Shown piece by piece: positions 36,061-57,500 of a DNA stretch of 64,000 nt. The position numbers and the translations under genes were made by a program. How positions within the stretch are numbered: position 1 is the stretch's first letter; the number at the start of each line of letters is the position of its first letter. The stretch lies in assembly GCA_937872315.1 (NCBI GenBank), contig CALMST010000252.1:1-64000 (forward strand), in the 5' to 3' direction. This DNA is from an uncultured Ignavibacteria bacterium (GTDB taxonomy: Bacteria > Bacteroidota > Ignavibacteria > Tepidaquicellales > Tepidaquicellaceae). The notes beneath the pieces are model-generated. The model was not told the origin of the DNA. It ran no database searches and worked only from the letters and a program-made list of their open reading frames with translations.

Positions 36061-37791
36061 TTATGCATTAAGAAATTGTTCACTTACTTCTTTCAGAACT
36101 CCTTTATGAAGAGTATAATAACTGTCAGCTTTTATCTTATGTGTTATTTTATGTCCTATGATAATTACAATTTTGTCTTTTACATGATTCTGCAGATTTT
36201 CAAAAAAATTATTTTCGGTAAGAAGGTCGATCGAACTCGTTGGTTCATCAAGAATGATTATCTGAGCGTCACTGTAAAATGCCCTTGCCAATGCTATTTT
36301 CTGCCACTGACCAATGCTTAGTTCTTCGCCATCCTTAAAGTGCTTACCTACAACAGTTTCATATTTCAGAGGATAATCTTCAACGAACTGGCTCGCTCCC
36401 GATAAATCAGCAACTTTCTCTACACTGTTATTCCTGTCGATTGCGCCGTACATAATATTCTCTCTCACAGTAAGATCATATTTACAATAATCCTGATATA
36501 TAATTCCTATATTCTTATGAAATGATTCTATATCAAGATCTTTTATATTAATATCATCAAATGTTATGGTTCCGGATGTACATTCATACATTCTGCAAAG
36601 CAGATTTATAAAAGTTGTTTTACCTGCCCCGTTCTTACCGGTTATAAGCACGGTTTCTCCTGGCTTTGCCGAAAATGAAACATCCTTCAATACGGTTTTT
36701 AATCCGTTCTCATAACGGAATGTAATGTTTTCAACTTTAATGCCTTTCTTTAGCTTTGGAAAAGGAATAGGATTTTCGATTTGTTTGATCTGAGGTTCAA
36801 GCTTTATAAAATCAAAAAGCGTGCTAAGGAATAATTTATTGCTGTATATCCCGGTAAGATTTGTCATAATACCTGAAAGATAAGTGTTGGCGCTTCTTAC
36901 TGCACCCAGAAACATTACAAAACCTCCTATCGTTACTTCCCCGGCATTATATTTATATGTCAGAAAAATTATAGCAAGCGACAGTGCCGCGACTTCAAAC
37001 AAGCTCGAAATTATATTTCCGCTTGTTTCGATTTTCAAAAATTTTATGACACTCTTTAATAATGATTCTCTTGTTTCATCATGTGTATTCTGTATGTGCT
37101 TTCCTAGTCTGAATATTCTTGTTTCCTTGGCAAAAAGTCTGTTTGTCATCAGATTACTGAAATAATTCACTTTTCTGTACAAACTCGTATTTTTCATTTT
37201 CCAGTCGAAAAACAATTTCGTTCTTCTGAACTTTATCACAAGAGCAGGTATTCCCGCAAGTATCATGATCAGCAATATGTAAATTGACAGTGAAGCCAGT
37301 ATTACCGCCACTCCGACAAAAGAAATAATACTTTTTATAAGTTCAGAAACACTCCCTACAATCTGCAAAGGTCTGCTAGTTGCTTCCTGCTGTGCACGGT
37401 GAAATGTATCATGATATTCTGCATTGTCATAATATGTCAGATCAAGTTCGAGTGATTTATTGTGCAGCAAATTATTCACAAAATTAACAACTCTGTGTCC
37501 GAGGATCTGGTAAACAACTGAATTGATTGAAATAGCTACCTGCATAAATAAAATTACCGAGCAGAATATAGCTATAACATACCAGACGTCATTCTGAACA
37601 TATCCGCCGGAGTTTGTAATACTGTCTATCAACACCTTCGTAAGATAAAGTACAATTAATGGAAGTGCTCCCATTATCACCAACAAAACCAGGCTAGCAT
37701 AACTTAACTTCTTATCACTCTCAAAAACAAATTTCATCGTTTTTGAGATATTGGAAAAATCAGATTTAAAACTCTTTAGATCAATTCTCAT
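36061..37791 (-). CDS. ABC exporter (fused membrane and ATPase domains), likely NRPS product exporter
   Basis: A 576-aa half-transporter: six transmembrane helices in residues ~25-330, then an ATPase domain. Walker A is GKNGAGKTT at residues 385-393; the signature is LSIGQ at 491-495 (third residue Ile rather than the usual Gly); Walker B is IIILDEPTSSID; the H-loop is 'IIIGHK'. Half-transporters of this type act as dimers and export peptides or lipids across the inner membrane. It is codirectional with the synthetases and starts 120 bp after the stop of the terminal NRPS gene, so export of the peptide is the natural guess. Confidence 0.87.
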   Translation of the reverse strand: MRIDLKSFKSDFSNISKTMKFVFESDKKLSYASLVLLVIMGALPLIVLYLTKVLIDSITNSGGYVQNDVWYVIAIFCSVILFMQVAISINSVVYQILGHRVVNFVNNLLHNKSLELDLTYYDNAEYHDTFHRAQQEATSRPLQIVGSVSELIKSIISFVGVAVILASLSIYILLIMILAGIPALVIKFRRTKLFFDWKMKNTSLYRKVNYFSNLMTNRLFAKETRIFRLGKHIQNTHDETRESLLKSVIKFLKIETSGNIISSLFEVAALSLAIIFLTYKYNAGEVTIGGFVMFLGAVRSANTYLSGIMTNLTGIYSNKLFLSTLFDFIKLEPQIKQIENPIPFPKLKKGIKVENITFRYENGLKTVLKDVSFSAKPGETVLITGKNGAGKTTFINLLCRMYECTSGTITFDDINIKDLDIESFHKNIGIIYQDYCKYDLTVRENIMYGAIDRNNSVEKVADLSGASQFVEDYPLKYETVVGKHFKDGEELSIGQWQKIALARAFYSDAQIIILDEPTSSIDLLTENNFFENLQNHVKDKIVIIIGHKITHKIKADSYYTLHKGVLKEVSEQFLNA

Positions 37792-37911: not shown

Positions 37912-40900
37912 TCACAAGACATCAGCATAGTTAATATTTTTTTTAGTTGGTTTTGAAACTGATCCATTTTTACCGGATCTGTTTTTTATTTCGTCATCAG
38001 TTTGCTTCAGAACTTCATTTAACTTTTCAGCAAAATCTCTGATATAGGGTTCAGTAACAATTGTTTTATGATCGGTTCCGGGTATAGTATATGATTCAAG
38101 TCCTCCACCCGCAAGTTCTTTCCACTTCTCCCTGGTTTCTTCTTTAAATGCTTCGCATTCGATCAGAGTAATTTTGCCGGGGTATTTTGTTGCGACATAT
38201 TCATCTTGAGCTTTGAAATGTATCAGTTTTATTTCTTCATATCTTCTTTGTCTGGAATCACTCATTAAATACCCAACAGTTTCCTTTATTTTTCTTTGCA
38301 TTTTCATAAATTTATTTACGGAATAATTTTTAGCTACCGTAAATAATTCACCCGATTTCAAATGATGAAATGATCTTTTTATAAAATGCTGCGCATCCCG
38401 TTTCTGTGGTATATGCTGCGGAGGTGGAGCAACAAACGGCGGCCATGTATCAAATATTGCAAGCAATGCTACCTCTTCGCCTGCAGCCATTAACTGCTGT
38501 GCCATTTCATAAACAACTCTTCCTCCAAAACATCTGCCGCAAAGCATATAAGGTCCCTTTGGCTGAAAAGTCCTAATTTCTTTATTATAGAATGCTGACA
38601 TCTCTTTAAGATCAGTGTGCGGTTTTTCAAGCCCATCCAGCCCTATAGATTCCAGTACATAGATCGGCTGTTCGGATGAAACATATTTTAGTAATTCCTG
38701 AAACTGTAAAGCTGTTCCCCCTGCATTTGGCACACAATATAATGGCATTCTGGAACCTCCCGGCTTGATCGGCACAAGTGATTTCCATGGCTGTACCCAA
38801 CCCTTGTCCTTTATGATTGCCGCAAGTTCTTTAATGGTCGGTGAATTGAATAAAGTTGATATCGGAAATTTTCTGCCTGATAATTTTTCGATACTTCCGA
38901 ACAACTGTAAAGCAAGCAAAGAATGACCGCCCAGCTCAAAGAAATTATCATTGATTCCGATGTTCTTTACATTCAATAATTCCTGCCAGATACCAACGAG
39001 CGCACCTTCAATTTCATTTGTCGGAGGCGCGTAATCATTGCTTAATAACTCCGATACATCCGGATCCGGTAATGACTTTCTGTCAATCTTTCCATTAGAA
39101 GTTAAAGGTAATTCATCCATTTCAACCCATAACAGAGGTACCATATATTCAGGTAATTTACTTTTCAGAAAGGTTATTAACTCCTGTTTGTCAAATTTAT
39201 CCGATCCATTTCCAACTACATATCCTATCAGACTCTTTATTCCGTGTTTATCTTCTTTTGCTATCACTACTGTGTTTTTTACCAAGCCGCTTTCCAGAAC
39301 TACACTTTCTATCTCGCCAAGCTCAATCCTGAATCCGCGGATCTTTACCTGCTCATCTATCCTGCCGAGATATTCCATTCTGCCGTCAGGATGCCATTTA
39401 CCAAGATCCCCTGATCTGTAAATTCTTTCACCAGTTGTAGCAATAAAGGGATTTGGTATGAATTTTTGTTTGCTTAACTCTTCAGCATTTAAATAACCGC
39501 GGGCCAGTCCGGCTCCACCTACATTGATCTCGCCCGGAACGCCGACAGGAACTAATTTAAGATTACTATCCAGTATATATGAATTCAAAGTTGGAATAGG
39601 TTTTCCAATAATACTGTTTCCTGATTTTAATTGCTCAGATCCGATTTCCTGAAAGGTCACATGAACAGTTGTCTCGGTAATACCATACATATTGATAAGT
39701 TTACAGTCCGGAAATGACTGCTTCCATGGCAGTAATTTGGACGGGTTAAGCGCTTCTCCGCCGAAGATCACATATCTAACTGCAATATTTTTTTCTTTGG
39801 AAGTAAGGTTTTCCTGAATCACATAAAATGCTGAAGGTGTCTGATTCATTACGGTTACATTTTCAGAAATGATCAGATCCGAATATAATGATGCATCCTT
39901 TGTAAGTTCTTTAGGTATAAGAATTAATTTCCCGCCATAAAATAAAGCACCGTACATTTCCCAAACAGAAAAATCAAAACAGAAAGAATGAAACATTGTC
40001 CAGACATCATTTTCATTAAAATCAAATAAAGGTGAATCATTCATGAATAATCTTACAACATTGTAGTGCTCGATCATTACTCCTTTTGGCTTTCCGGTCG
40101 AGCCGGAAGTATAGATCACATATGCCAGATTATGCGGTTTAATATTTAATCCGGGATTTTTTAAGGAAAGACCTTCCGGATAAGCAATGCTTTCTTCAAG
40201 AATAATTATTTCCTTATTTTCCGGGGAAGATATTCGCGAACTGCTTTCTTTACCGGTGATAACAATTGATGCATTAGTGTCTTCAATTACATAACGGATC
40301 CTGTCTTCAGGATATTCCGGATCCACAGGTACATAAACACCTCCGGCTTTCAAAATTCCCAAAATGCCAACGATCATTTCAAACCCACGTTCTATGCAGA
40401 TCGGAACAAATCCTTCCTCCTTTAATCCTTTGCTGATCAAATAATGCGCTAACCTGTTAGACCTTTCATTCAACTCTTTATAACTCATGGTTTTGTCTTT
40501 ATAGACAAGCGCAGTATTTCCGGGTGTCCTTTCTGCCTGTTCCTCAAACAGATCCACTATGGTTTTGTTTTTCGGATAATCAGTTTCTTTACCTTTAAAA
40601 TCACTGAGTATTTTATTCTCTTCAGATTCACTTAGCATTCTGAGCAATCCTGCCTTCTCATCAGGCTTGTTTACGATCGATCTTAATAATTCTTTGAAAT
40701 GAACTATCATTCTTTTAATAGTATCTTCAGAAAATAAATCAGTACAGTACTGAAAAGATCCCTGTAATCCTTTTTCAGTCTCAAACATATTCAGAGTAAA
40801 ATCAAACATGGAAGTTGTATATTCATATTCCTGAAATGTTAACTCAACATCACCTAATTGTAACTGCTTTGCCTCAGGTGTATTCTGAAATACAAACATT

Positions 40901-41940
40901 ACCTGGAAAAGCGGACTTCTGCTCTGGTCTCTTTGCTTTACTACGGATTCAACAACTTTCTCAAAAGGTACATCCTGATGTTCGTATGCCTCAAGAGTGG
41001 TTGTTTTTATTTTGTTTAATAATTCCGTAAAAGGAGTTTCATTATATACTTCATTTCTTAATGTAAGTGTATTAATGAAAAATCCGATCAGCTCTTCAGT
41101 CTCTTCCTGTAAACGGCCTGCTATCGGAGTTCCGACACTTATATCATTCTGACCGCTGTATCTGTAAAGCATAACATTAAATACCGCAAGCAATGTCATG
41201 AACAATGTAGCGCCATTTTCCTTTGATAATTTTTTTACCGCATCAGATAATTCTTTATCAATGCTGAAGCCATAAACCGCTCCATTTATACTTTGAACTG
41301 CCGGTCTTGTAAAATCAGTTGGTAACTCAAGCGGATCTACATATCGCAGCTGCTTTTTCCAGTAATCTGTTTTTTCTTCCAGTACTTCCGCGTTCAAATA
41401 ATTTTTCTGCCATATAGAAAAATCAGCATACTGAATCTTTAAAGGCTTTAGAATGGGTTCCCTGTTTTCTTCATATGATTTATAAAACTCCAAAAGTTCA
41501 TTTACAATAATCGATATCGACCAGCCATCAGATGCAATATGGTGCATAGTCATAACTAGTATATATTCATCTTCCTTAATTTTTATCAGATTACATCTCA
41601 GCATGTGATCCATAGTCAAATCGAATGGTGCTAAGATCAGTTTGTTTATCTGATCCTGTAATTCTTTCTTGTCACCTGTATATTTTGGATCATCAATGAT
41701 CTGAAGTTTCCAGGTATCTTTATCTTTAATCTTCTGATAACCTTTACCATTAACTTCCTGAATGACAGTCCTTATAACTTCATGTCTGTTTATAATGCTC
41801 TGTAAAGCTTTTTCCAGAGCTTCGGTATTAAGTTTGCCTTTTAGTTTTAAAACTGCGGGTAAATGATATTGAATACTTCCGACAAGTCTGTCAATAAACC
41901 ATAATCTTTCCTGACTGAATGAAAGCGGAATGAGCTCAGG
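37912..41940 (-). other. NRPS module 7: C-A(Thr)-T-TE
   Basis: C ~41930-40640; A ~40580-39050 with pocket D-F-W-N-I-G-M-V-H (FDFSVWEM, VTVMNQTP, YVIFGGEAL, NMYGITETTVHV), threonine; T ~39030-38800; TE ~38790-37912 with GRCFG (Cys codon at 38530-38532). Confidence 0.85.
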
Positions 41941-44900
41941 TCTTGTCTGAACTTCAACAGCAGGCAGTAATGACCTTTTCTTCTGAGTTTCAATATGCTC
42001 TGCAAGATCAGCAATATTCGGATTAAGGAACAGATCCTTAATGGCAAGTTCGGCTCCTATATCATTCCGGACTGAAGATATAACCCTCATCGCCAGTAAT
42101 GAATGTCCGCCCAGCTCAAAGAAGTTATCATGAATGCCAACCTTATCTATGTGAAGTAAATTTTTCCATATCCCGGCAAGCGCGGTCTCCATCTCATTCC
42201 GGGGAGCTGCATATTCTTTGCTCATCTGTTCACTTCCGTCTATATCCGGTAATGCGCGTCTGTCAACTTTTCCGTTCTTTGTCAATGGCAGCTTTTCCAT
42301 CTTTATCCACATCGCCGGTACCATGTAATCCGGTAATCTCTTGCTTAAATATTTTACTATCTCATCTTTTTCATATCCGCCTTCCGGAACCACATATCCG
42401 ACAAGTCTCTTGCTTCCTTCAGCACTCTGTTTTACAAGAACTGCTGCCTGCCTGACAAGCTCACATTCCTGAAGCGCATTCTCTATTTCTCCAAGCTCTA
42501 TTCTGTATCCGCGGATCTTTACCTGTTCGTCCGCTCTGCCGAGATATTCAATGTTTCCGTCAGCTTTCCATCTACCGAGATCTCCCGTTCTGTATAGTCT
42601 TGCGCCTTCTTTTTTACTGAACGGATCCTTTACAAATTTCTCTTTTGTAAGTTCTGGATTGTTCAGATATCCGTTTGATACTCCGTCTCCGCCTAAGTAT
42701 ACTTCACCCGTTATTCCTAACGGTGAAGGCTGCAGATTCTTATTCAAAACATAAGCTGTCCTGTTACTCAACGGCCGTCCAATCGGAATCAGCATTTTCT
42801 GTTTTGTCAGATCGGTTTCTTTTATGCTATATGTCAATGAGAATGTAGTATTCTCAGTCGGACCGTATCCGTTTATAATTTCTATCTCAGGATAAGTCTT
42901 TCTCATCTTTTCAATATGATATTCAGATAATTTCTCTCCTCCTGCAAGTATTGTCTTAAGATTTTTAAAGACTGTAATGTCATTATCAACAAGCTGATTG
43001 AACCAGCTGGAAGTAAACCACATCTTTGTCACTCCCCTGCTGTTAATTTCTTCTTTCAGAAGTTCGCTGTCGAGAAGTCTGCTCTCTGTGCAAAGAACAA
43101 GTTGCCCGCCGTTTAGCAGCATGCCCCAGTATTCAAATGTCGTTGCATCAAATGAAGTCGAACCTGTGGAAAGAAGTACATCGTCTTTTGTCAGTGTCAC
43201 ATAATCAACTCCTTTTACAAGGCTCACAACATTCTTCTGTGTGACCATCACGCCTTTCGGCCAGCCCGTCGAACCCGATGTGTAGATTATATATGCAAGA
43301 TCTTCCGGCTTGACCGATAAAGACAGTTTTTCCTTTGACTCTGCGCTTATCTTATCCCACTCTGTATCTATTTCAATTTTTGTGTACTCTTCAAGAGCAG
43401 GTAATTTTCCGGCACACTCACGGCTGCTGATAATTATTTTACTTCCCGTATCTTTCAGCATGAAACGAATCCGCTCTTCCGGATACTCCGGATCGATCGG
43501 TACATAGGCGCATCCTGCTTTTAAAACACCGAGTATTCCAACCATCAATGTCGCGCTTCTCTCTATGCATAGAGGAACCGGATAACCCTGCTCTGCTCCT
43601 TTGCTTCTGAGATAACGTGAAAACTGATCCGATCTTTCATCAAGATCTTTATATGTAAGCTTTTCATTCTCAAATAATACCGCGGGCGATTCCGGATTCA
43701 AGGATACCTGTTCTTCAAACAATTCAACAATTGATCTATCCGAAGGATATTCTGATGCCGTTTCATTAAACTCATTAACAACTTGATGCTCTTCCTCTTC
43801 TGACAGCATCTGAAGTGATCCCGTCTTCTGCTGAGGATCTCTGACTACTGACTCAAGTAGATTCTTAAAATGAATGATCATCTTTTTGATCGTTTCCTCT
43901 TTGAACAGATCTGTGCAGTATTCGACAATTCCGTGTAAGCCATCTTCAGTTTCAGTCAGACTATAAACAAGATCAAATTTGGATACTTTTTGTTCAGGAT
44001 CTTCGCCTTCCAGAATAAGTTCGCCGAGACGAAGTTCCGGAACTTTTGGTGTATTCTGAAGCGCAAAAGTTACCTGAAATACAGGACTTCTGCTCATGTC
44101 TCTTTGCTTTACAACTGAATCAACTATCTTTTCAAATGGTACATCCTGATGTTCAAAAGCTCCAAGTGAAGAAGATTTTACTTTTTGTAAAAGCTCTTCG
44201 AATGTCTCCTCTCCTGTAACTTCACTTCGCAATGCAAGAGTATTTATAAAGAATCCTATTAATGCTTCTGTCTCTTCCTGCTGTCTCCCTGCTACTGGAC
44301 TTCCGATGCTGAAATTTTCCTGACCGCTGTATCTGTAAAGCAATACATTGAAAGCCGAAAGCAAAGTCATGAAAAAGGTAACACCATTTTTCTTCGACAA
44401 TGAGTTTAATGAAACGGACAAATCCTTATCAATGCTGAATGAAGCGATTGCTCCTTTAGTACTTTGTATGGAAGGTCTCTCAAAATCCAATGGCAATTGC
44501 AGAGGTTCTGAATCAGATAATTTATTTTTCCAGTAAGCGAGTTTTTTCTCAAGCACTTCTCCCTGAAGATAATTTCGCTGCCACATGGAAAAATCAGCAT
44601 ACTGAACCGGTAAAGGTGAAAGACCGGCTTCGCGATTCTCTTCATGCGCTTTATAAAATTCTACAAGTTCTTTTACAATTATAGAAATTGACCAGCCGTC
44701 AGAAGCAATATGGTGAAGTGTAATTACAAGAATATGTTCATTCTCATTAATTCTTATAAGCGTAGCTCTCATCATATGATCTTCAGAGAGATCAAACGGA
44801 GAATTTATTATGTCATTAATATATTTATGTAAACCTTCAGCATTATCTTTATATACTGAACCGTCTATCTGTTCAAGTTTCCAGCTGTCTCTATCCTTAA

Positions 44901-45366
44901 CAATCTGGAATCCCAGACCTTCATTTTCTCTTATGACTGTTCTTAAGACTTCATGTCTGTTTACAATATTCCGCAACGCAAATTCAAGTGCTTCTTTATT
45001 CAGCTTTCCCTTTAATCTTAAAACTGCCGGGATATGATATTGTGAAGTCCCTTCCAGACGATCAATGAACAGCAATCGTTCCTGACTAAAAGACAATGGA
45101 ATTCTGGAATATGAAGCTCTGTCAAAAGGTATTATCTTTGCTTTTTCAGTATTGATCAGATCAAAATCACCAGATTCACTTTTCAGAAAATCTGAAATTT
45201 CCTCCTTATATTCACTAAGCTTTGCAATAAGACCTTTGTCTACAGCATCTTTGTTTATTTTTTTATCAATAGAATAACGCAGTTTTCCATTTTCATGAAA
45301 AACTGAAATCCCTTTTACCCTTGCTTCAGTTAAAAGATCAATAATGTTTTTGTTCGAAATAGTCAT
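37912..45366 (-). CDS. Non-ribosomal peptide synthetase, two modules plus thioesterase (docking-C-A-T-C-A-T-TE)
   Basis: A 2,484-aa protein. Residues 1-~60 match the TubC N-terminal docking domain (LLTEARVKGISVFHENGKLRYS). Then follow C (HHIASDGWS), A, T (FFELGGHS), C (HHIASDGWS), A, T (FFELGGHS) and a C-terminal type I thioesterase. First A pocket, read by eye against GrsA: D-A-F-W-L-G-G-T-F, valine-like. Second: D-F-W-N-I-G-M-V-H, the threonine code. The TE nucleophile motif is GRCFG with Cys2279 in place of the usual Ser; a downstream GTDH supplies the histidine. It adds the last two residues and releases the peptide. The ATG at 45366 follows the giant synthetase by 40 bp in the same operon, without a clear Shine-Dalgarno site. 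Confidence 0.95.
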   Translation of the reverse strand: MTISNKNIIDLLTEARVKGISVFHENGKLRYSIDKKINKDAVDKGLIAKLSEYKEEISDFLKSESGDFDLINTEKAKIIPFDRASYSRIPLSFSQERLLFIDRLEGTSQYHIPAVLRLKGKLNKEALEFALRNIVNRHEVLRTVIRENEGLGFQIVKDRDSWKLEQIDGSVYKDNAEGLHKYINDIINSPFDLSEDHMMRATLIRINENEHILVITLHHIASDGWSISIIVKELVEFYKAHEENREAGLSPLPVQYADFSMWQRNYLQGEVLEKKLAYWKNKLSDSEPLQLPLDFERPSIQSTKGAIASFSIDKDLSVSLNSLSKKNGVTFFMTLLSAFNVLLYRYSGQENFSIGSPVAGRQQEETEALIGFFINTLALRSEVTGEETFEELLQKVKSSSLGAFEHQDVPFEKIVDSVVKQRDMSRSPVFQVTFALQNTPKVPELRLGELILEGEDPEQKVSKFDLVYSLTETEDGLHGIVEYCTDLFKEETIKKMIIHFKNLLESVVRDPQQKTGSLQMLSEEEEHQVVNEFNETASEYPSDRSIVELFEEQVSLNPESPAVLFENEKLTYKDLDERSDQFSRYLRSKGAEQGYPVPLCIERSATLMVGILGVLKAGCAYVPIDPEYPEERIRFMLKDTGSKIIISSRECAGKLPALEEYTKIEIDTEWDKISAESKEKLSLSVKPEDLAYIIYTSGSTGWPKGVMVTQKNVVSLVKGVDYVTLTKDDVLLSTGSTSFDATTFEYWGMLLNGGQLVLCTESRLLDSELLKEEINSRGVTKMWFTSSWFNQLVDNDITVFKNLKTILAGGEKLSEYHIEKMRKTYPEIEIINGYGPTENTTFSLTYSIKETDLTKQKMLIPIGRPLSNRTAYVLNKNLQPSPLGITGEVYLGGDGVSNGYLNNPELTKEKFVKDPFSKKEGARLYRTGDLGRWKADGNIEYLGRADEQVKIRGYRIELGEIENALQECELVRQAAVLVKQSAEGSKRLVGYVVPEGGYEKDEIVKYLSKRLPDYMVPAMWIKMEKLPLTKNGKVDRRALPDIDGSEQMSKEYAAPRNEMETALAGIWKNLLHIDKVGIHDNFFELGGHSLLAMRVISSVRNDIGAELAIKDLFLNPNIADLAEHIETQKKRSLLPAVEVQTRPELIPLSFSQERLWFIDRLVGSIQYHLPAVLKLKGKLNTEALEKALQSIINRHEVIRTVIQEVNGKGYQKIKDKDTWKLQIIDDPKYTGDKKELQDQINKLILAPFDLTMDHMLRCNLIKIKEDEYILVMTMHHIASDGWSISIIVNELLEFYKSYEENREPILKPLKIQYADFSIWQKNYLNAEVLEEKTDYWKKQLRYVDPLELPTDFTRPAVQSINGAVYGFSIDKELSDAVKKLSKENGATLFMTLLAVFNVMLYRYSGQNDISVGTPIAGRLQEETEELIGFFINTLTLRNEVYNETPFTELLNKIKTTTLEAYEHQDVPFEKVVESVVKQRDQSRSPLFQVMFVFQNTPEAKQLQLGDVELTFQEYEYTTSMFDFTLNMFETEKGLQGSFQYCTDLFSEDTIKRMIVHFKELLRSIVNKPDEKAGLLRMLSESEENKILSDFKGKETDYPKNKTIVDLFEEQAERTPGNTALVYKDKTMSYKELNERSNRLAHYLISKGLKEEGFVPICIERGFEMIVGILGILKAGGVYVPVDPEYPEDRIRYVIEDTNASIVITGKESSSRISSPENKEIIILEESIAYPEGLSLKNPGLNIKPHNLAYVIYTSGSTGKPKGVMIEHYNVVRLFMNDSPLFDFNENDVWTMFHSFCFDFSVWEMYGALFYGGKLILIPKELTKDASLYSDLIISENVTVMNQTPSAFYVIQENLTSKEKNIAVRYVIFGGEALNPSKLLPWKQSFPDCKLINMYGITETTVHVTFQEIGSEQLKSGNSIIGKPIPTLNSYILDSNLKLVPVGVPGEINVGGAGLARGYLNAEELSKQKFIPNPFIATTGERIYRSGDLGKWHPDGRMEYLGRIDEQVKIRGFRIELGEIESVVLESGLVKNTVVIAKEDKHGIKSLIGYVVGNGSDKFDKQELITFLKSKLPEYMVPLLWVEMDELPLTSNGKIDRKSLPDPDVSELLSNDYAPPTNEIEGALVGIWQELLNVKNIGINDNFFELGGHSLLALQLFGSIEKLSGRKFPISTLFNSPTIKELAAIIKDKGWVQPWKSLVPIKPGGSRMPLYCVPNAGGTALQFQELLKYVSSEQPIYVLESIGLDGLEKPHTDLKEMSAFYNKEIRTFQPKGPYMLCGRCFGGRVVYEMAQQLMAAGEEVALLAIFDTWPPFVAPPPQHIPQKRDAQHFIKRSFHHLKSGELFTVAKNYSVNKFMKMQRKIKETVGYLMSDSRQRRYEEIKLIHFKAQDEYVATKYPGKITLIECEAFKEETREKWKELAGGGLESYTIPGTDHKTIVTEPYIRDFAEKLNEVLKQTDDEIKNRSGKNGSVSKPTKKNINYADVL
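41990..45366 (-). other. NRPS module 6: TubC-like docking-C-A(Val)-T
   Basis: Docking domain ~45366-45187; C ~45110-43800; A ~43760-42240 with the same amino-acid sequence as the A domain of module 4 (pocket D-A-F-W-L-G-G-T-F); T ~42220-41990 with GGHS and no E domain. The predicted residue is L-valine. Confidence 0.85.
42107..43926 (-). repeat. Copy 1 of a 1,820-bp identical repeat (module 6)
   Basis: Direct repeat with 50175-51994 at a constant offset of 8,068 bp; line-by-line reading shows no mismatch or indel. It covers the last ~40 residues of C, the whole A domain and T up to the two glycines before the active serine. The flanks diverge at once. Confidence 0.93.
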
Positions 45367-45406: not shown

Positions 45407-48400
45407 TTACAGATCAAATGCTTCTGATTCGTCATCTTTTTCTTTATTCGATTTAATTAAATCAATATACTTTCCGAGATCAGCAATGCTTGTAAATTCA
45501 AATAATGATTTGATCGGAATATTTACCGAGAACTGTTTTCTTATAGCAGATACAGCCCTTGTAGCCAGTAAAGAATGACCGCCCAGTTCAAAGAAATTAT
45601 CATGAATACCTATCTTACCTGATCCGAGAAGATCCTGCCATATTAAAGCCAGTTTCTCTTCGGTTTCATTTCTCGGCTCTTCGTAATTTCCGCTTATTCC
45701 TGCAGTAATATCCGGATCAGGTAATGCTCTTTTATCGACTTTACCGTTTGGAGTTAATGGAATTTCTTCCACTTCAACCCACAAAGAAGGAACCATATAC
45801 TCGGGAAGTTTGGCTTTAATATATGAAATTATTTCCTCTTTATCAAAATTATCTTCCGGCACCACATAAGCCGCTAATCTCTTGTTTCCGGTATTATCTT
45901 CTTTTGCCAGAGTTACCGCTTTTCTTACTGATTTATGCTGTTGTATGATACTTTCGATTTCACCGAGCTCGACCCTGTAACCGCGAATCTTTATCTGATC
46001 ATCTGCTCTTCCGGTATATTCTATATTTCCGTCAGAAAGCCATCTTGCCGTGTCTCCTGTCCTGTATAATCTTGCATCCGGATCTTTACTGAACGGATCC
46101 TTGATGAAACTCCTGTTTGTAAGTTCAGGCAGGTTCAAATATCCTCTTGCGATCTGAATGCCACCGATATATAATTCACCTTTTACTCCAACAGGAACCG
46201 GTTTCTGATCTTCATTTAAAATATAAAGCTGTGTATTGAAGATCGGTTTTCCAATTGGCGGCAGAACCGGAAGATCTCTGCTGTTAACAAGTGTATAACT
46301 GCTTACCACATGCGCTTCTGTAGGACCGTATTGGTTTACTATTGATATACCTTTATCTAAAATTGCCTTTATATCTTCAGTAATTTTTAACTGCTCTCCT
46401 GCTGTGATGATCTGCTCAAGTGGTAAATTATCTCCGGATCTTTCCCTGAGTATTTCAGATAAATTTTTCAGTACAATGTATGGAACGAATAAATGTGTAA
46501 TTCCATATTTAGCTATATCGTTTGTAACTTCTTCCATATCAATTCTTCGGTCAGCACTAATAAGACATAATGTACTGCCATAACAAAGTGTGGAGAATAT
46601 TTCCTGAAAGCTCACATCAAAATTCAGACTGGTAAACTGAAGGACTTTCCTTTTCTTATTTTTAAATTGTCTGTCCTGCCATGAAAGCAAATTAACCAGT
46701 CCTCTTCCCGGCATCCTCACACCTTTCGGATTACCTGTTGACCCTGATGTGTATAGGACATAAGTGAGATTATCAGGTTTTACTCTTTCATCCGGGTTTG
46801 AATCCTTCTGTGAATTCAGCACGGAGTTATTCTCATCAATTTCTATGACTTTAACATTACTTCCAAAATTTATCCTGTCATTAATAAGTTTGCTGCTTAA
46901 AATTATCTTTGCGCCTGTATCATCCAGCATGAAATTTATTCTTTCCTGCGGATACTCCGGATCGATCGGCACATAAGCTCCGCCAGCTTTTAATGTTCCT
47001 ATAATACCTGCTATCATATTTACCGAACGCTCCATACATACAGGAACAAGCGTTTCCTCTTTCACTCCCTCTGACCTTAATAAATGAGCAATACGATTGG
47101 ACAGCTCATTTAACTCTTTATATGACACTATCTTTTCTTCAAATTCAACTGCCGTTGTTTCCGGATTCTTTGCAGCCTGCTCTTCAAACAGATCAACAAG
47201 ACTCTTGTCTTTTGGATAATCTGCTTCAGTATTATTAAATCCGGCTATGACCTGTCTCTCTTCTTCATGAGAAAGTAACTTAATGTCATTTATTATTTCA
47301 GCTTCATTACTGATGATCTGCATAAGCACATTTTCAAAATGCTCTCTTATCTCAGATGCAAATTCATCTTTTAATATCTCTTTATTATAATTGAAATTAA
47401 CATTGATCTCCTGAACACCACCAACCAAAACTGTCATCGGATAATTTGTCTGATCTTTCATTTTTACATCATCGATCTTCAATGTCCATTCCTGCGACAT
47501 TATAATATCACTTACCGGATAGTTCTCAAACACTAGTATGCTGTCAAAAAGGTCACCGCTCACGCCAGTCCAGCTCTGTATTTCCTGTAACGGCGTGTAC
47601 TGATATTGTCTTGAAGAAACCTGGTCTTTCTGAATATCCTGTAACCAGCTTTCTGTCCTCTTTCCTTTTTCCAGTATAGAATGTAAAGGAAGAGTATTGA
47701 TGTACAATCCGACACGCTGTTCTATTCCCTGAAAATCATCAGGTCGTCCGGAAACTATAACGCCAAATGTAATATCTTTATTTCCTGTATAAGCATGAAG
47801 AAGATAAGACCATACTCCCTGAATTAATGTATTCAATGTAATGCGATGACTCTGCGCATAATTTTCAGCTTTTGAAGTTGTTTCTTTATCAAGCTTCAGT
47901 AATATATTTCCATATTCACCAACACCTTTCGTTCTGTCTGAAGTGCTGCCAATGAACGGAAGCAATGTGCTTTCTTCAACACCTCTCATGTATTCTCGCC
48001 AGTATTTTTCCTGCTGAACTTTATCTGACCTTTCCAGATATCTGATATAATCCTCAAACCTGTCTTCAACCCGCTCTTCAGGTATTTTGCCTGATAACAA
48101 TATTTCATAATTATTCAAAAACTCACCCATCAATATTGACAAAGACCAACCGTCAAACAAAATATGATGAGATGTCCATAACATTTTATATCTGTTCTCT
48201 TCAAGTTTTATCAGAGTGATCCTCATCAATGGTACTTCTTTAAAATCAAATCCCTTTGAGTGATCTGTTTCCTCAAGTTCTTTAAGAGCTGCAGCCTGTT
48301 CATCTGAATTCATGTTACTGTAATCCAAAACCGTTAATGGCAGCTCGGCATTTTTATAAACACACTGTACCGGAACTGAGAATTCCTCATAATAAAATCC

Positions 48401-48575
48401 GCTTCGCAATATGCTGTGATCCTTTAATAAATAATTCCAGCTCTTCTTCAGAATATCCATGTCAGGTTTATTCATATAACAGCTCAGCTGCTCGGTATAA
48501 GCACCTGATTCGGAATCGTATAAAGCATGAAAAAGCATTCCCTGCTGCAATCCGCTGAGTCTGTAAATACTTTCA
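45407..48575 (-). other. NRPS module 5: C(D-L)-A(proline-like)-T with docking tail
   Basis: C ~48570-47290 (HHILFDGWS). The A pocket read by eye is D-V-Q-F-I-A-Q-V-V (FDVSFQEIF, THLFVPY, IITAGEQL, VNQYGPTEAHVV), close to proline codes such as DVQFIAHVV but with Gln instead of His at one site. T ~45690-45470 (FFELGGHS), then a short Lys/Glu/Asp-rich tail. Confidence 0.75.
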
Positions 48576-51500
48576 AGAGTTTCCCTTCTTGAATTTCCTT
48601 CATAATCTTCATCCAGAAATTTATCCAGTTCATCATAACTGATCTCATTACCCAGTCCGTAATCAGATGGTGTAAATTCAGATCCCGATTTCTGCTGTTC
48701 CATACAGTGAGAGATCAATGCTTCCAGATTCTCTTTGTATTTTTCAGCTAAACTTGCTATCGTTTCCTCTTTGAAAAATTTATCACTGTATGTCCAGTTG
48801 ACAAGTAACTCTCCTCCCCTGATCATTCCGTTAACTGATAGTTTCTCACTTATGATCTGCTCCGGACTTCTGAATTCACCGGCTGACTCACCTGCTCCTG
48901 AGAACCATTTACTTCCGCTTACAGCCTGATCAAGCTGTCCGAGATAATTGAATACAATATCCCAGTAAGCTTTTTCTGAATATTTTTTTTCTTTGTTAAT
49001 ATATTTCAGTACACCAAATCCGAGACCTTTGTCAGGTACTCTTCTCAGCTGTTCTTTAACACTCTTTATAGAACCGGAAATACTCAAGCCTTTATTCAGC
49101 TCAATCAAAACAGGATACAGACTGGTAAACCATCCCACAGTCCTGCTTGTATCTGTATTTTCTATGACGCTTTCCGAAATACTCTCTCTTCCATGACCTT
49201 CCATTCCTATTATTACTTTCTCATTCGAATTCCATTCGCTTATTGTCATAGAAAGTGCGCAAAGCAGTATATCATTTATTTCTGTATGGTAAACTCCCGG
49301 TACTTCAGACAATAACAATCTGGTTCTCTTTTCATCGAGTTTGGTAATGCTGCTCTTAATATCCTTTGCCCTGACTGCGCCGTCATATTCTTTATCGGTT
49401 TTTACAGGCTCATAGCTCTCAATTGTTTTAGTCCAGTATTTATCCTGTAATAGTAATTCTTTACTCTTTCCGTACTGCTCCAGAACCTTAAACCACTGTC
49501 TGTATGAACTTGTTTTTTTGCCAAGATCAGTTTCCCTGTTTTCCGAAAGTCCTGTCAGAATTATCTCCAGGTCTTCAAGGATAATTCTCCATGAGACACC
49601 GTCAATAGCAAGGTGATGGATGATAAGTAACAATCTGTTTTCTTTTCCGGATTCAGGTGTCTGAATTAATACGAACTTAACTATTTCTCCTTTTTCAATA
49701 TCAAGCGCTGCCTGATATCTGTCACCGGTTTTTTTAATACGGTTTTCAAAATCATCATTACTTACCGACCTGATATCTTCTGTTATAAATTCTCCAAAGT
49801 TTGTTCCGTATTCCTGCGACCAGATTCCATCTGAATTTTTATAAATAAATCTTAAAGCATCATGATGCGATGTCAACTGTTTCATCGCTTTTTCAAGCAT
49901 CTCAGGAGTTGCATCTTTATTTACAGATAACAAAATGCTTTGATTAAAATGTGATACATTTTCATTCTCTTCTTCAAAATACCATTGCTGAATCGGCAGA
50001 AGACCTGCTTCACCTTTAAGTTCACCCTGTTCACCGGTTACAGCTGATAAAGTTCTTTCAGCCAGCACTTCTGATAATCCTGCGATAGTCTGATGAATGA
50101 AAATATCTTTTGGTTTCAGTTCATATCCGAGACGTCTAGACCGGCTGAGTACCTGAATTGTAATTATTGAATCACCGCCCAGCTCAAAGAAGTTATCATG
50201 AATGCCAACCTTATCTATGTGAAGTAAATTTTTCCATATCCCGGCAAGCGCGGTCTCCATCTCATTCCGGGGAGCTGCATATTCTTTGCTCATCTGTTCA
50301 CTTCCGTCTATATCCGGTAATGCGCGTCTGTCAACTTTTCCGTTCTTTGTCAATGGCAGCTTTTCCATCTTTATCCACATCGCCGGTACCATGTAATCCG
50401 GTAATCTCTTGCTTAAATATTTTACTATCTCATCTTTTTCATATCCGCCTTCCGGAACCACATATCCGACAAGTCTCTTGCTTCCTTCAGCACTCTGTTT
50501 TACAAGAACTGCTGCCTGCCTGACAAGCTCACATTCCTGAAGCGCATTCTCTATTTCTCCAAGCTCTATTCTGTATCCGCGGATCTTTACCTGTTCGTCC
50601 GCTCTGCCGAGATATTCAATGTTTCCGTCAGCTTTCCATCTACCGAGATCTCCCGTTCTGTATAGTCTTGCGCCTTCTTTTTTACTGAACGGATCCTTTA
50701 CAAATTTCTCTTTTGTAAGTTCTGGATTGTTCAGATATCCGTTTGATACTCCGTCTCCGCCTAAGTATACTTCACCCGTTATTCCTAACGGTGAAGGCTG
50801 CAGATTCTTATTCAAAACATAAGCTGTCCTGTTACTCAACGGCCGTCCAATCGGAATCAGCATTTTCTGTTTTGTCAGATCGGTTTCTTTTATGCTATAT
50901 GTCAATGAGAATGTAGTATTCTCAGTCGGACCGTATCCGTTTATAATTTCTATCTCAGGATAAGTCTTTCTCATCTTTTCAATATGATATTCAGATAATT
51001 TCTCTCCTCCTGCAAGTATTGTCTTAAGATTTTTAAAGACTGTAATGTCATTATCAACAAGCTGATTGAACCAGCTGGAAGTAAACCACATCTTTGTCAC
51101 TCCCCTGCTGTTAATTTCTTCTTTCAGAAGTTCGCTGTCGAGAAGTCTGCTCTCTGTGCAAAGAACAAGTTGCCCGCCGTTTAGCAGCATGCCCCAGTAT
51201 TCAAATGTCGTTGCATCAAATGAAGTCGAACCTGTGGAAAGAAGTACATCGTCTTTTGTCAGTGTCACATAATCAACTCCTTTTACAAGGCTCACAACAT
51301 TCTTCTGTGTGACCATCACGCCTTTCGGCCAGCCCGTCGAACCCGATGTGTAGATTATATATGCAAGATCTTCCGGCTTGACCGATAAAGACAGTTTTTC
51401 CTTTGACTCTGCGCTTATCTTATCCCACTCTGTATCTATTTCAATTTTTGTGTACTCTTCAAGAGCAGGTAATTTTCCGGCACACTCACGGCTGCTGATA

Positions 51501-54500
51501 ATTATTTTACTTCCCGTATCTTTCAGCATGAAACGAATCCGCTCTTCCGGATACTCCGGATCGATCGGTACATAGGCGCATCCTGCTTTTAAAACACCGA
51601 GTATTCCAACCATCAATGTCGCGCTTCTCTCTATGCATAGAGGAACCGGATAACCCTGCTCTGCTCCTTTGCTTCTGAGATAACGTGAAAACTGATCCGA
51701 TCTTTCATCAAGATCTTTATATGTAAGCTTTTCATTCTCAAATAATACCGCGGGCGATTCCGGATTCAAGGATACCTGTTCTTCAAACAATTCAACAATT
51801 GATCTATCCGAAGGATATTCTGATGCCGTTTCATTAAACTCATTAACAACTTGATGCTCTTCCTCTTCTGACAGCATCTGAAGTGATCCCGTCTTCTGCT
51901 GAGGATCTCTGACTACTGACTCAAGTAGATTCTTAAAATGAATGATCATCTTTTTGATCGTTTCCTCTTTGAACAGATCTGTGCAGTATTCGACCGAACC
52001 CATTATTCCTTCGGGAGTCTCCACCGTAAAGAATGTCAGATCAAATTTCGAATTTACATTCGGGAAAACTTCATTGGATAATTTTACATCTCCTAGATTC
52101 AGCTCAGGTACATCCGGTGTATTCTGCAGCGCGAAAATGATCTGGAATAAAGGACTTCTCGTCATATCCCTTTGCTTTGCCACAGTGTCAACTATTTTTT
52201 CAAAAGGCACATCCTGATAATCATAAGCCTCAAGTGTAGTTGATCTGACCTGCCTGAGCAGTTCAAGAAATGAAGCTTCATTATCTATTTCATTTCGCAG
52301 CGTAAGCGTATTGACAAAAAATCCGATCAGCTTTTCAACTTCTTCCTGCTGTCTTCCGGCTATCGGAGTTCCGACGCTGATATTTTCCTGACCGCTGTAT
52401 CTGTTTAGTAATACATTAAATGCCGCGAGCAATGTCATGAACAATGTCGCCCCGTTCTGCTTTGATATATTCTGCAATGAATCAGAGAGATCTTTACTAA
52501 TCTCAAAATTTACATTCGCTCCTTTGATACTCTGCACAGCCGGTCTCTCAAAATCGATCGGGAGTTGTATCGGCTCAACATCAGCAAGCTTATCTCTCCA
52601 GTATTCAAGCTTCCTGTCAAGCATCTCTCCCTGCAAATGCTTCCTCTGCCATACAGCAAAATCCGCGTACTGAACTTCAAGAGCCGGAAGTTTTGAATCC
52701 AGATTTTTATCAAATGCTTCATAAAGTTCGGCAAGTTCGTTTACAATAACCGATACCGACCAGCCGTCTGAAGCTATATGATGCATTGTTATTACTAGTA
52801 TGTTCTCATCTTCACTTAATCTGATCAGATGAATTCTCATCATATGATCCTTGGAAAGATCAAAAGGTTTTCCGATCAGTTTTAAAATATTACTCTGTAA
52901 ATTTTCCGGCGAATCTTTATACTTTCCTCCGTCAATGATCTCAAGATCCCAGTTGTCCTTTTCCTGAACGACCTGATATCCCGCGCCGTCTTCCTGTAAA
53001 ATTACCGAGCGTAAAACTTCATGCCTGTTAATGATCGTCTGAAGTGACCTTGCTAAAGCATCAGTATTCAGCTTTCCTTTTAATCTTAATACCGCAGGCA
53101 CGTGATACTGCACGCTTCCTTCAAGCTGATCAATAAACCATAATCTTTCCTGACTGTATGACAATGGTATCCTGTCAGGTCTCTGTCCGGCAGTGACAGG
53201 TGGAAGGATCAGACCTTTGCTTAATGTATCCAGATATCTTGAAAGTTCTGATACAGTCGGATAAACAAACAGGTCCTTGATCGCGATCTCGGAATCCATT
53301 TTCTTTCTGATTGCTGATATTACTCGCATTCCCAGAAGCGAATGTCCGCCAAGTTCAAAGAAATTATCATGAACACCAATTTTGTCTGTACCAAGCAGGT
53401 CCTGCCATATATCCGTAAGTTTCTTTTCCGTTTCGGTTTCAGGAGCTATATAATTCAGCTTATCAACTTCTATTACATCCTCTCTCTGACTTAAGAATTT
53501 ACGGTCAACTTTTCCGTTATTTGTCAGCGGCAACTCATTCAGTACAATTAATTCCGATGGTATCATATAATCAGGAAGACTTTCCTGAAGCATATTCCTT
53601 ATATCTTTCTTCAGCAGCAGACTAATATCATTCATCAATGGAATATTAGTGTTTGCCGATTTTAATGCCCTTTTCTTTTCAATAAACGGCTGCTTTATAA
53701 ATTTGCCTTCCAATACTGAAGGATCCGATTCAAGTATAAGATCTATCAGCAAAGGATCTTCATTAAGTAAAAATCTGTATGTGTAACCTTTTGAAACAGC
53801 TAATTCCAGCAGCTCCTGAGCTCTCTTACTTTCCTGATCCGTACTGTTCATTACTTCAAGAATGTCACCTACATTATTTACATCTTTATCATTTAATGCT
53901 TTGCTCATAAGCCGTTCCTTTACGAGTCGGGGATTTGGGACATTCATGATCGCTATCAAACTCTTACCTTCACTGATCTCATCCAGGACTGATGTTTCAT
54001 TCAATTCATTCCAGTCCTGCCATTTCGGATCTGCTGCTTCTATACCATTTTTATCTCCAACGTGAATCACAGCAGTGTATCTGTATAATGATAATTCATT
54101 TATATAAGATGCCTGTTTCCATTTTATTTCAATGTTTGATATCTCCGGATAAAGTGATCTCAGTTTTACAAAATATTCAGGATCAAAACAAAGCTCTTCT
54201 TCTTTAATGACATCCTGTTCTAAAGTCCATTTAAATTCTTTTACTGAAGCCGAATGATTTAATCTGTTGATATGAAGTCGTCCTTTGAAATACCCCAGTA
54301 ATCTGTTATCTCGCACATCACCAATGATGATCCTGCCATTTCCTTTCAGCACAGATATACCTTTGCCAATCACCTGATCCATATAATCTTCACCGGGAAA
54401 ATACTGGACTATGGAGTTAAGAATTACCGTATCAATATTCTCATCATCACTGATCTCGATCTCATGAGCAGAAACAATTCTTAGATCAGTCTCGCAGTAA

Positions 54501-57500
54501 TTTCTTAAACCTTTACTGATCTGCTTTCTGATCTGATCCATGGAAGATCTTGAAAAGTCAGTTCCGATATATTTTTTTACTTTCTCCGCTAATTCATAAT
54601 AAATCAGTCCTGTACCCGAACCGATCTCAAGAACATTCACTGGTTTCTCCGATAATATCACATCGACAATATCATCTCTCCATGCGCGCATTTCTTCCGG
54701 TTCAATAATACCGCCTGTAAAACTGTCATTCCATCCTATTATATTAAATTCAACATCTTCAATCTCAATATCCTCTGTCTGTGAATATTCTGTATCATAC
54801 AGCTCTTTCCATCCCGCGATCTGTCTCTGGTAAAGTTCATGTTCTTTCTTTTTCACATATTCCGGTTCCGGCACATAATATCCGATGATCCTGTTTTCTT
54901 TTCCTGTCCTTAGAACGATACAACTTACTTTCACAGACTCAAGATTATTTATGACATTCTCAATTTCACCCAGCTCAATTCTGTATCCGCGGATCTTTAC
55001 CTGATCATCGAGCCTTCCGGAGAATTCAATATTTCCGTCAGGAAGCCATCTTCCGAGATCACCTGTTCTGTACATTCTCGAGAATTCTTTTTCATTGAAT
55101 GTATCAGCAACAAATTTTTCTGTTGTAAGCTCAGCTCTGTTTAAATAGCCCCTTGCAAGCTGCGCTCCGCCAATGTTGATCTCACCGATAACTCCGACAG
55201 GTACAAGTTCTCCGTCTTTACTAAGAATATGTACAACTGAATTGGCGATCGGTTTTCCTATCGGTGGAACTGAATATTTTTCTTTTGCTCCGTCGGCAAA
55301 CAAAGGATAATTACAGGTTACGACCGTATTCTCTGTCGGACCGTAATTATTCACAAACTTATAATTAATCCCTTCACTGCTGACTGCCGATAGTTTATCT
55401 CCGCCGGTCAGTAAATATTTAAGTGAAGTTAATTTATGTCTCGAAGCATTTATAAAATCCTGAATGATAGCAGTTGACATGAAACTGTGAGTCATTTCAT
55501 TCTCATTAAAATACTCTGTCAAAGCTTCAGGATTTACACGAAGATCATCATTGATAATATATAAACCTGCTCCGACAGATAAGTACGGCCAGATCTCCCA
55601 GCCAAATGCGTCAAAACCGATCCCTGCCATGGTTGTAGTCCTGCTGTCAGGTGTAACTTCATATTCCCTGTTATGCCACATCACAAGATTCAAAAGTGAT
55701 CTGTGTTCTATCATAACACCTTTCGGCTTCCCGGTCGATCCGGATGTATAGATCACATATGCTAAATTATCCGGCTCAATTTTTATTCCCGGATTTTTCT
55801 GATCTGATTTAAAACCGGCTGACCAGTCTCCGTCAACTTCTATAACTTCTAACTTCCCTGATTCCGGTAATTTTGAAGAACTTCCTTTGCTGCTTAAAAT
55901 TATTTTTGCTTCTGTATCCTCAAGCATGAAACTGATTCTGTCCGGAGGATAATCCGGATCGATCGGCACATATACGCCGCCTGCCTTCAATACAGCGAGT
56001 ACTCCGGCAATCAGCTCAATGCTTCTGTCAATGAAAACAGGAACAAGTGTTTCTTTTTTAATTCCTTTGCTTATCAGATAATTTGCAAGCCTGTTTGAGA
56101 TTTCATTGAGCTCATAATATGTAACATGTGTATCTTCAATGATCAGCGCGTGTGAATGAGGTCTGCTGACTGCCAATCCCTCAATCAGTTCCACTACATT
56201 CGTATTCTCAGGAAATGCCGCAAAAGTATCATTAAAGCCATAAAGAAGCTGCTGTTTCTCAATTGCTGCAAGCATAGGTATTGTTCCTATACTGCACTCG
56301 GGATCCTTAACGACCGAATTAAGCAATTCCATATAATGACCGATCATTCTCCTTATGGTCTCCGGGCTGAAAAGATCTGTAGCATATTCAAATCCGGCTT
56401 CAATGCCTTCAGGAATTTCATTTGTATAAAGTGTAAGATCAAACTTTGATGTCGTATGCTCTACTCCTGCGTTTGATAAAGTCAGTTTGTCAAAATCAAC
56501 TTTCTCAACTGTTGGCGTATTCTGAAGAACCATTGAAACCTGAACCAGCGGATTCTTGCTCATGTCCCTGTCACCTACTACTGTATCAACTACTTTCTCA
56601 AAAGGCACTTCCTGATTTTCATATGCTTCCATCGTTGTTTTCCTGACGTCATTCAACATTTCGATAAAAGAATTTCCTGATCTGATCTCACTTCTTAAAG
56701 CCAGTGTATTCACAAAGAATCCGATCAGTTCTTCCATCTCTTTTGACTGACGGCCCGCTATACCAATTCCCACAACAAGATCTTCCTGCCCTGTATATCT
56801 GTAAAGTAAAACTTTGAAAGCAGCCAGCAGGGTCATGAATAAAGTAGCTCCCTGTTTCTGGCTGAGACTCTGCAGCTTCCCGCTTAATTCTTTATCAATA
56901 TTGAATAACTCTATAGCGCCTTTGTTACTTTGAATTGCCGGTCTTGCAAAATCAGTAGGCAATGTTAATGGCTCTGCCTCATTAAGCTTTTGCTTCCAGT
57001 AATTTAATTTCCTGTCAAAGATCTCACCCTGCAGATGTCTTCTCTGCCATATTGCATAATCAATGTATTGAATTGCCAGAGGTTCAAGATCCGGCTTTCT
57101 GTTTTGTGAATATGCCGCATAAAGCTCAACCATCTCTTTAACCAGAACTGACATCGACCATCCGTCCGATGCAATATGATGCATCGTAACTTCAAGTATG
57201 TGTTCGTCTTCACTCAGACTTATCAGATGTCCTCTGATCATGTAATCCTGCGAAAGATCAAACGGTACGCTTATCAGATCCTGTAAATATTTATCAAGCC
57301 CTTCCTTATCATCTTTATAAACTGACCCGTCAATATAATCCAGATCCCAGTTGTTTTCATCTTTGACATACTGATAGCCGACACCTTCTTCTTCCCGGAT
57401 CATCGTCCTGAGAATTTCATGACGGTTGATTATTGTCTGTAATGCCTTTGAAAGAAATTCTTTATTCAGAAGTCCTTTGAATCTAAGAACTACCGGCATA

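Follow-up and report, generated by a model that had tools for sequence, protein, structure and literature searches.

The window, i.e., the 64,000-nucleotide stretch of DNA analysed here, belongs to a contig of 137,693 bases from an uncultured Ignavibacteria bacterium and carries the terminal part of an NRPS line that extends past it. Four minus-strand genes, designated N1, N2, N3 and N4 in their order of action, account for 14 building blocks when their motifs are counted. These genes, the domains relevant to chain release and the adjoining functions are as follows.

Contig 91647-85423 (L006), minus strand: N1, C-A-PCP-C-FkbH
Contig 85416-69547, minus strand: N2, which starts with a PCP
45407..64000 of the window, continuing up to contig position 69532, minus strand: N3, 8041 aa, modules 7-12
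57893..59377, minus strand: module 9, adenylation domain (DFWNIGMVH(K), Thr); its Thr is a candidate for closing the ring
37912..45366, minus strand: N4, terminal NRPS gene, 2484 aa, TubC_N docking-C-A(Val)-PCP-C-A(Thr)-PCP-TE (ORF and domain calls)
45181..45345, minus strand: TubC_N-like docking domain of N4 (23.7 bits, slightly below the 26-bit cut-off)
42028..45141, minus strand: module 13 (C-A-PCP), A code DAFWLGGTF(K), Val
40606..41931, minus strand: condensation domain of module 14 (PF00668, aa 1146-1587)
39070..40548, minus strand: module 14, adenylation domain (DFWNIGMVH(K), Thr)
38815..39003, minus strand: terminal PCP of module 14 (PF00550, aa 2122-2184)
38002..38799, minus strand: type I thioesterase (TE), 266 aa modelled (PF00975, AlphaFold, Foldseek)
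38530..38532, minus strand: TGT codon of Cys2279, nucleophile of GRCFGG, directly after beta5 (sequence and model)
38449..38451, minus strand: codon of Asp2306, acid of the triad, immediately behind beta6 and hence at position I (sequence and model; position I/II as defined in PMC11298585)
38068..38070, minus strand: codon of His2433, triad base within PGTDHKT, after beta8 (sequence and model)
36061..37791, minus strand: MsbA-like ABC exporter, 576 aa, directly downstream of N4
C252:93781-96246 (L006:9781-12246), beside N1: penicillin-amidase family protein (637 bits, weak PvdQ match)
C119:8217-9011, same genome: paralogous TE with GRCFGG and PGTDH, 56% identical to the N4 TE

The other modules are given below; all residue assignments are predictions that follow the Stachelhaus codes, and the codes of the Val modules and of module 6 were read by eye from an alignment with gaps.

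Module 1: DAEHIGEVT, perhaps basic (low confidence)
Module 2: glycerate (predicted), FkbH/PCP split module
Module 3: DAEHIGEVT, with E, basic side chain predicted
Module 4: DGYFLGVTY, Ile-like
Module 5: DVWHVSLIE, Ser
Module 6: DAYTVAAVC, with E, aromatic
Module 7: DVQFIAQVV, Pro-like
Module 8: DVWHVSLID, with E and an FkbM methyltransferase insert, Ser
Module 10: DAWFLGNVV, with a methyltransferase-type insert, Leu
Module 11: DAFWLGGTF, with E, Val
Module 12: Pro-like

The FkbH domain at the C-terminus of N1 (TIGR01686, 295 bits) has its matching PCP at the opening of N2; together they form a split module for which the loading of glycerate is predicted, and glycerate as an internal unit of an NRPS chain in turn predicts an ester bond. 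Since the line opens with a C domain, the first residue probably carries an N-terminal acyl group, and the predicted product is hence an N-acylated 14-unit depsipeptide with glycerate at position 2. Within N3, an FkbM-family methyltransferase (window 62804-63364) is inserted into the Ser-type A domain of module 8, where it replaces the usual N-methyltransferase; it might O-methylate the serine.

Beyond the exporter downstream of N4, ribosomal and SSB genes follow, while N1 is adjoined by a JmjC/Cupin_8 protein, a type II TE with a Ser nucleophile (GHSMGG) and the penicillin-amidase family protein, which may cleave off the fatty acyl group once the product has been exported. An exact direct repeat of 1805 bp with sharp edges (window 42111-43915 and 50179-51983) covers the Val A domain of modules 13 and 11; we interpret it as a recent conversion or duplication of the A domain, and it is a risk point for the assembly of this genome, which is present in 386 contigs. 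The contigs of two Ignavibacteria MAGs (L040 and L041) both start near this repeat. Because the repeat joins modules 11 and 13 and these contigs start there, the order of the modules upstream of module 14 is assembly-dependent; the Thr14-TE end of the line is unaffected by this doubt.

The TE domain of N4 matches PF00975 with 74 bits (cut-off 26.4) at aa 2208-2338, C-terminal to the PCP. An earlier note on this DNA had placed a Cys nucleophile, Cys2279, in a GRCFG motif at 38500-38560, and both the codon and the surrounding GRCFGG motif bear this out. The AlphaFold model (41-row alignment; mean pLDDT 87.6; pTM 0.81; lid ill-defined) depicts an alpha/beta-hydrolase in which the Cys (C90 in the numbering of the domain) follows beta5 (84-89), the Asp (D117) directly follows beta6 (110-116) and the His (H244) is positioned after beta8 (234-239). 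A GxSxG/GxCxG elbow, an Asp after beta6 and a His after beta8 fit a type I NRPS thioesterase, and sequence and model together identify the N4 TE as such an enzyme, of ordinary fold and with Cys2279 as its nucleophile. In the segment after beta7 (ECEAFKEE) we looked for an Asp, which is absent, and the domain search disclosed no MbtH-like domain joined to the TE.

The corresponding TEs of L040 and L041 are 97% and 93% identical to that of N4, and each keeps the Cys, the Asp and the His. The comparison with L040 gave a dN of 0.017 and a dS of 0.71 (dN/dS about 0.024), that with L041 a dN of 0.041 and a dS of 1.62 (dN/dS about 0.025). Purifying selection on the N4 TE is strong and exceeds that on the remainder of the aligned module, for which dN/dS is 0.07-0.09. 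The MsbA-like exporter located 3' of the N4 TE is also present in both MAGs. Since the triad is kept in L040 and L041 as well as in the paralogous TE of the same genome, which also reads GRCFGG, Cys2279 is neither a sequencing error nor a chance event. This paralogue has a near-orthologue (L042) in which GRCFGG and PGTDH are kept, and both are 56-57% identical to the N4 TE, from which they differ in following the Pro module of a FAAL-PKS-NRPS line. The second gene cluster of the genome (C119:8109-25681; L008, L039) has the organization FAAL-ACP-KS-AT-DH-MT-KR-ACP, C-A(Gln)-PCP-E, C-A(Pro)-PCP-TE(Cys) and is followed by an Sfp-type phosphopantetheinyl transferase.

The earlier note had likened the N4 TE to ObiF, in which case the beta-hydroxyl of Thr14 would attack its own acyl-Cys bond and the product would be a peptide with a C-terminal beta-lactone. 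Two features speak for this: the Cys nucleophile and the terminal Thr, the latter predicted in the earlier note and upheld by the code of module 14; ObiF shares the Cys with SulM and likewise handles a beta-hydroxy last residue. However, the catalytic Asp of TEs occupies either position I after beta6 or position II after beta7, and ObiF and SulM, which form four-membered rings and fall among the type II TEs, carry it at position II (PMC11298585, PMC6668435), whereas Asp2306 is at position I. ObiF matched the N4 TE only marginally (18 bits, E 0.009) but gave a clear match to the type II TE of the same cluster (32 bits, E 1e-6). The products of ObiF and SulM are small, and the Gln-Cys-Asn motif of SulM, a beta-lactam TE, is absent from the N4 TE, which reads Arg-Cys-Phe; also missing is a fused MbtH-like domain.

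Kinship points in the same direction. In PDB sequence searches with the N4 TE, 7crn, AB3403 and other type I TEs ranked first, and a profile search agreed with the fold search, with 7crn and AB3403 among the leading matches. Foldseek returned 7dxo/7crn, an epimerising and cyclising TE, as the best PDB match, followed by 4zxh (AB3403) and Vlm2; neither ObiF nor SulM was among the 50 matches listed. All best matches being type I TEs, the N4 TE does not group with the type II enzymes by this measure, ObiF itself lying outside the tree described below. Asp position and sequence kinship rule out membership of the ObiF-type beta-lactone class, and we regard an ObiF-like beta-lactone as very unlikely. 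It is exceedingly unlikely that a position-I triad closes a beta-lactone on Thr14 by an origin independent of ObiF; if it did, the product would be a large lipodepsipeptide whose C terminus carries an electrophilic warhead.

Enzymes with the arrangement of the N4 TE are known. AB3403 of A. baumannii also combines a Cys nucleophile with a position-I Asp (PMC11298585, PMC6668435), and it resembles the N4 TE further in its GWCFGG motif and in a His within PGDH, but it serves a single Gly-specific module and is placed far away in the tree. The TE of BulbE (bulbiferamide, Microbulbifer), compared here by its published description, is an NRPS-terminal type I TE with Cys, an Asp at beta6 and His; it macrocyclises onto the indole N of Trp, and its C-to-S mutant only hydrolyses (PMC11536411). 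It differs from the N4 line in closing a 15-atom macrolactam on a hexapeptide, and since Cys arises repeatedly in the TE family, the Cys common to BulbE and the N4 TE is no proof of common descent. The macrocyclising 7crn/7dxo and didemnin TEs share the fold and the position-I Asp with the N4 TE; they are distant and use a Ser nucleophile (GWSLGS and GWSFGG, respectively).

How widespread are Cys nucleophiles among related TEs? We collected 117 sequences with patterns that did not include the nucleophile motif, although the ranking by similarity may slightly favour Cys; 31 of them carry Cys and 85 carry Ser. In a phylum-wide sample outside this genome, the number was four out of about 30. The label 'unusual' that the earlier note had attached to the product was consequently too strong, and little was found in the literature on a census of Cys TEs. 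The Cys enzymes fall into several separate lineages, mostly behind residues lacking a beta-hydroxyl; apart from Thr (N4) and Pro (the C119 paralogue), the codes upstream of them include Leu, Val, Ile, Gly and Cys types, and a Thr or Ser code also precedes some Ser TEs (L114, L113, L068). The Pro paralogue and the other Cys TEs rule out the Cys nucleophile as a marker of a terminal beta-hydroxy residue. Cys thus does not predict a beta-lactone, and this lack of correspondence speaks further against such a ring on Thr14.

The catalytic His is missing from 11 of the 31 Cys TEs (L050, L066, L079, L022, L024, L095, L096, L097, L105, L108 and L117) and from none of the 85 Ser TEs. At the site of the missing His, motifs such as APGDDSG, LPSNPGG and IAATDSG are found, and five of the 11 lack the position-I Asp as well. 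These proteins come from several phyla and more than one clade and constitute a His-less, Cys TE-like class.

A tree of 43 TEs (careful alignment, nucleophile masked; BulbE, SulM and ObiF not included) requires about 12 changes between Cys and Ser, and in one sister pair supported at 100/98, L051 has Cys and L072 has Ser. The AU test rejects a single origin of the Cys TEs (p 0.017), although this group was defined by the very trait at issue and the tree contains long branches. The clade that holds the N4 TE consists of Ignavibacteria sequences only (support 100/100); that a KSB1 TE which also reads GRCFGG (L043) belongs to it is neither supported nor rejected (AU p 0.48). This repeated exchange would be expected if Cys were a substitution at the level of lineages with no special chemistry, in which case the N4 TE would hydrolyse its acyl-Cys intermediate and release a linear 14-residue lipopeptide acid. 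The same-genome paralogue argues likewise: its short FAAL-PKS-D-Gln-Pro line ends in a residue without a beta-hydroxyl, and the predicted product offers just a poor amide nucleophile unless a hydroxyl from the PKS survives, so that the clade of the N4 TE may simply hydrolyse. Against hydrolysis, chains this long that contain Thr or Ser in their interior generally undergo cyclisation. Moreover, the three NRPS Cys TEs of tested chemistry that we found in the literature, BulbE, SulM and ObiF, all cyclise (PMC11536411, PMC11298585), which agrees with the general idea of the earlier note that Cys TEs favour cyclisation, and exchange of Cys for Ser in BulbE and SulM switches the enzyme to hydrolysis (PMC11536411, PMC11298585). 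We treat hydrolysis as a serious alternative, though as one less likely than cyclisation.

On balance, our preferred reading, which we take to be somewhat more likely than not, is that the N4 line loads its chain onto Cys2279 and discharges it through macrocyclisation, with a macrolactone at Thr9 as the most plausible form. The observed ground for this proposal consists of the order of the genes, their domains and codes, the residues of the triad, the conservation and the fold. If the TE acts at all, Cys2279 is very likely acylated: the finished chain would pass from the carrier protein of Thr14 to Cys2279, yielding an acyl-thioester enzyme, and a nucleophile within the chain would then displace the thioester and set the macrocycle free. 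Macrocyclisation as the mode of release is moderately likely, since Cys TEs with tested chemistry cyclise, the long chain offers several internal nucleophiles and its N terminus seems blocked; this apparent acylation disfavours a head-to-tail closure. The complete triad in a hydrolase model, the fold matches to 7dxo/7crn, AB3403 and Vlm2, and the constraint on the TE are further points in its favour. As ring-closing nucleophile, Thr9 is weakly favoured; attack by its hydroxyl would give a six-residue macrolactone. The earlier note had already proposed such a closure by a second Thr; the module in question (about 57893-59377), which it numbered 2 because the window cuts N3, is the third module of N3 and number nine in the complete line. 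Alternatives to Thr9 are Ser5, the free glycerate hydroxyl and the side chain of residue 3, which is predicted to be basic.

Counting against macrocyclisation, the clade of the N4 TE contains no characterised enzyme, and AB3403, although solved, is a Cys/position-I TE without established release chemistry (PMC11298585, PMC5376624). In addition, natural Ser TEs macrocyclise too, and in RufT an S-to-C exchange raised hydrolysis, not cyclisation (PMC11934086). Transfer of the chain to an external nucleophile (an amine, an alcohol or a second chain) would produce an amide, an ester or a dimer. Acyl-thioesters have been argued to be far more reactive toward amines than acyl-oxyesters (PMC11536411), and some TEs dimerise their substrates (PMC11735501); however, no dedicated amine-supplying gene was seen adjoining the NRPS line, and we deem such a transfer very unlikely.

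Of the interpretation offered in the earlier note, the Cys nucleophile, the terminal Thr, the macrolactone option and the tendency to cyclise stand, while the likeness to ObiF does not. Cys TEs are fairly common, and the N4 TE is built differently from the beta-lactone-forming ObiF. A Cys nucleophile alone is a weak predictor of the product of a terminal TE: Cys and Ser replace one another repeatedly in the family, and it is the placement of the Asp that separates the makers of beta-rings from the others. The two sister Cys TEs of this genome, one behind Thr at the end of 14 modules and one behind Pro at the end of a short line, constitute a natural test for the role of Cys in release. Given the sparse open-access literature that joins Ignavibacteria, NRPS and gene clusters, the product of the N4 line would represent new chemistry from a little-studied phylum.
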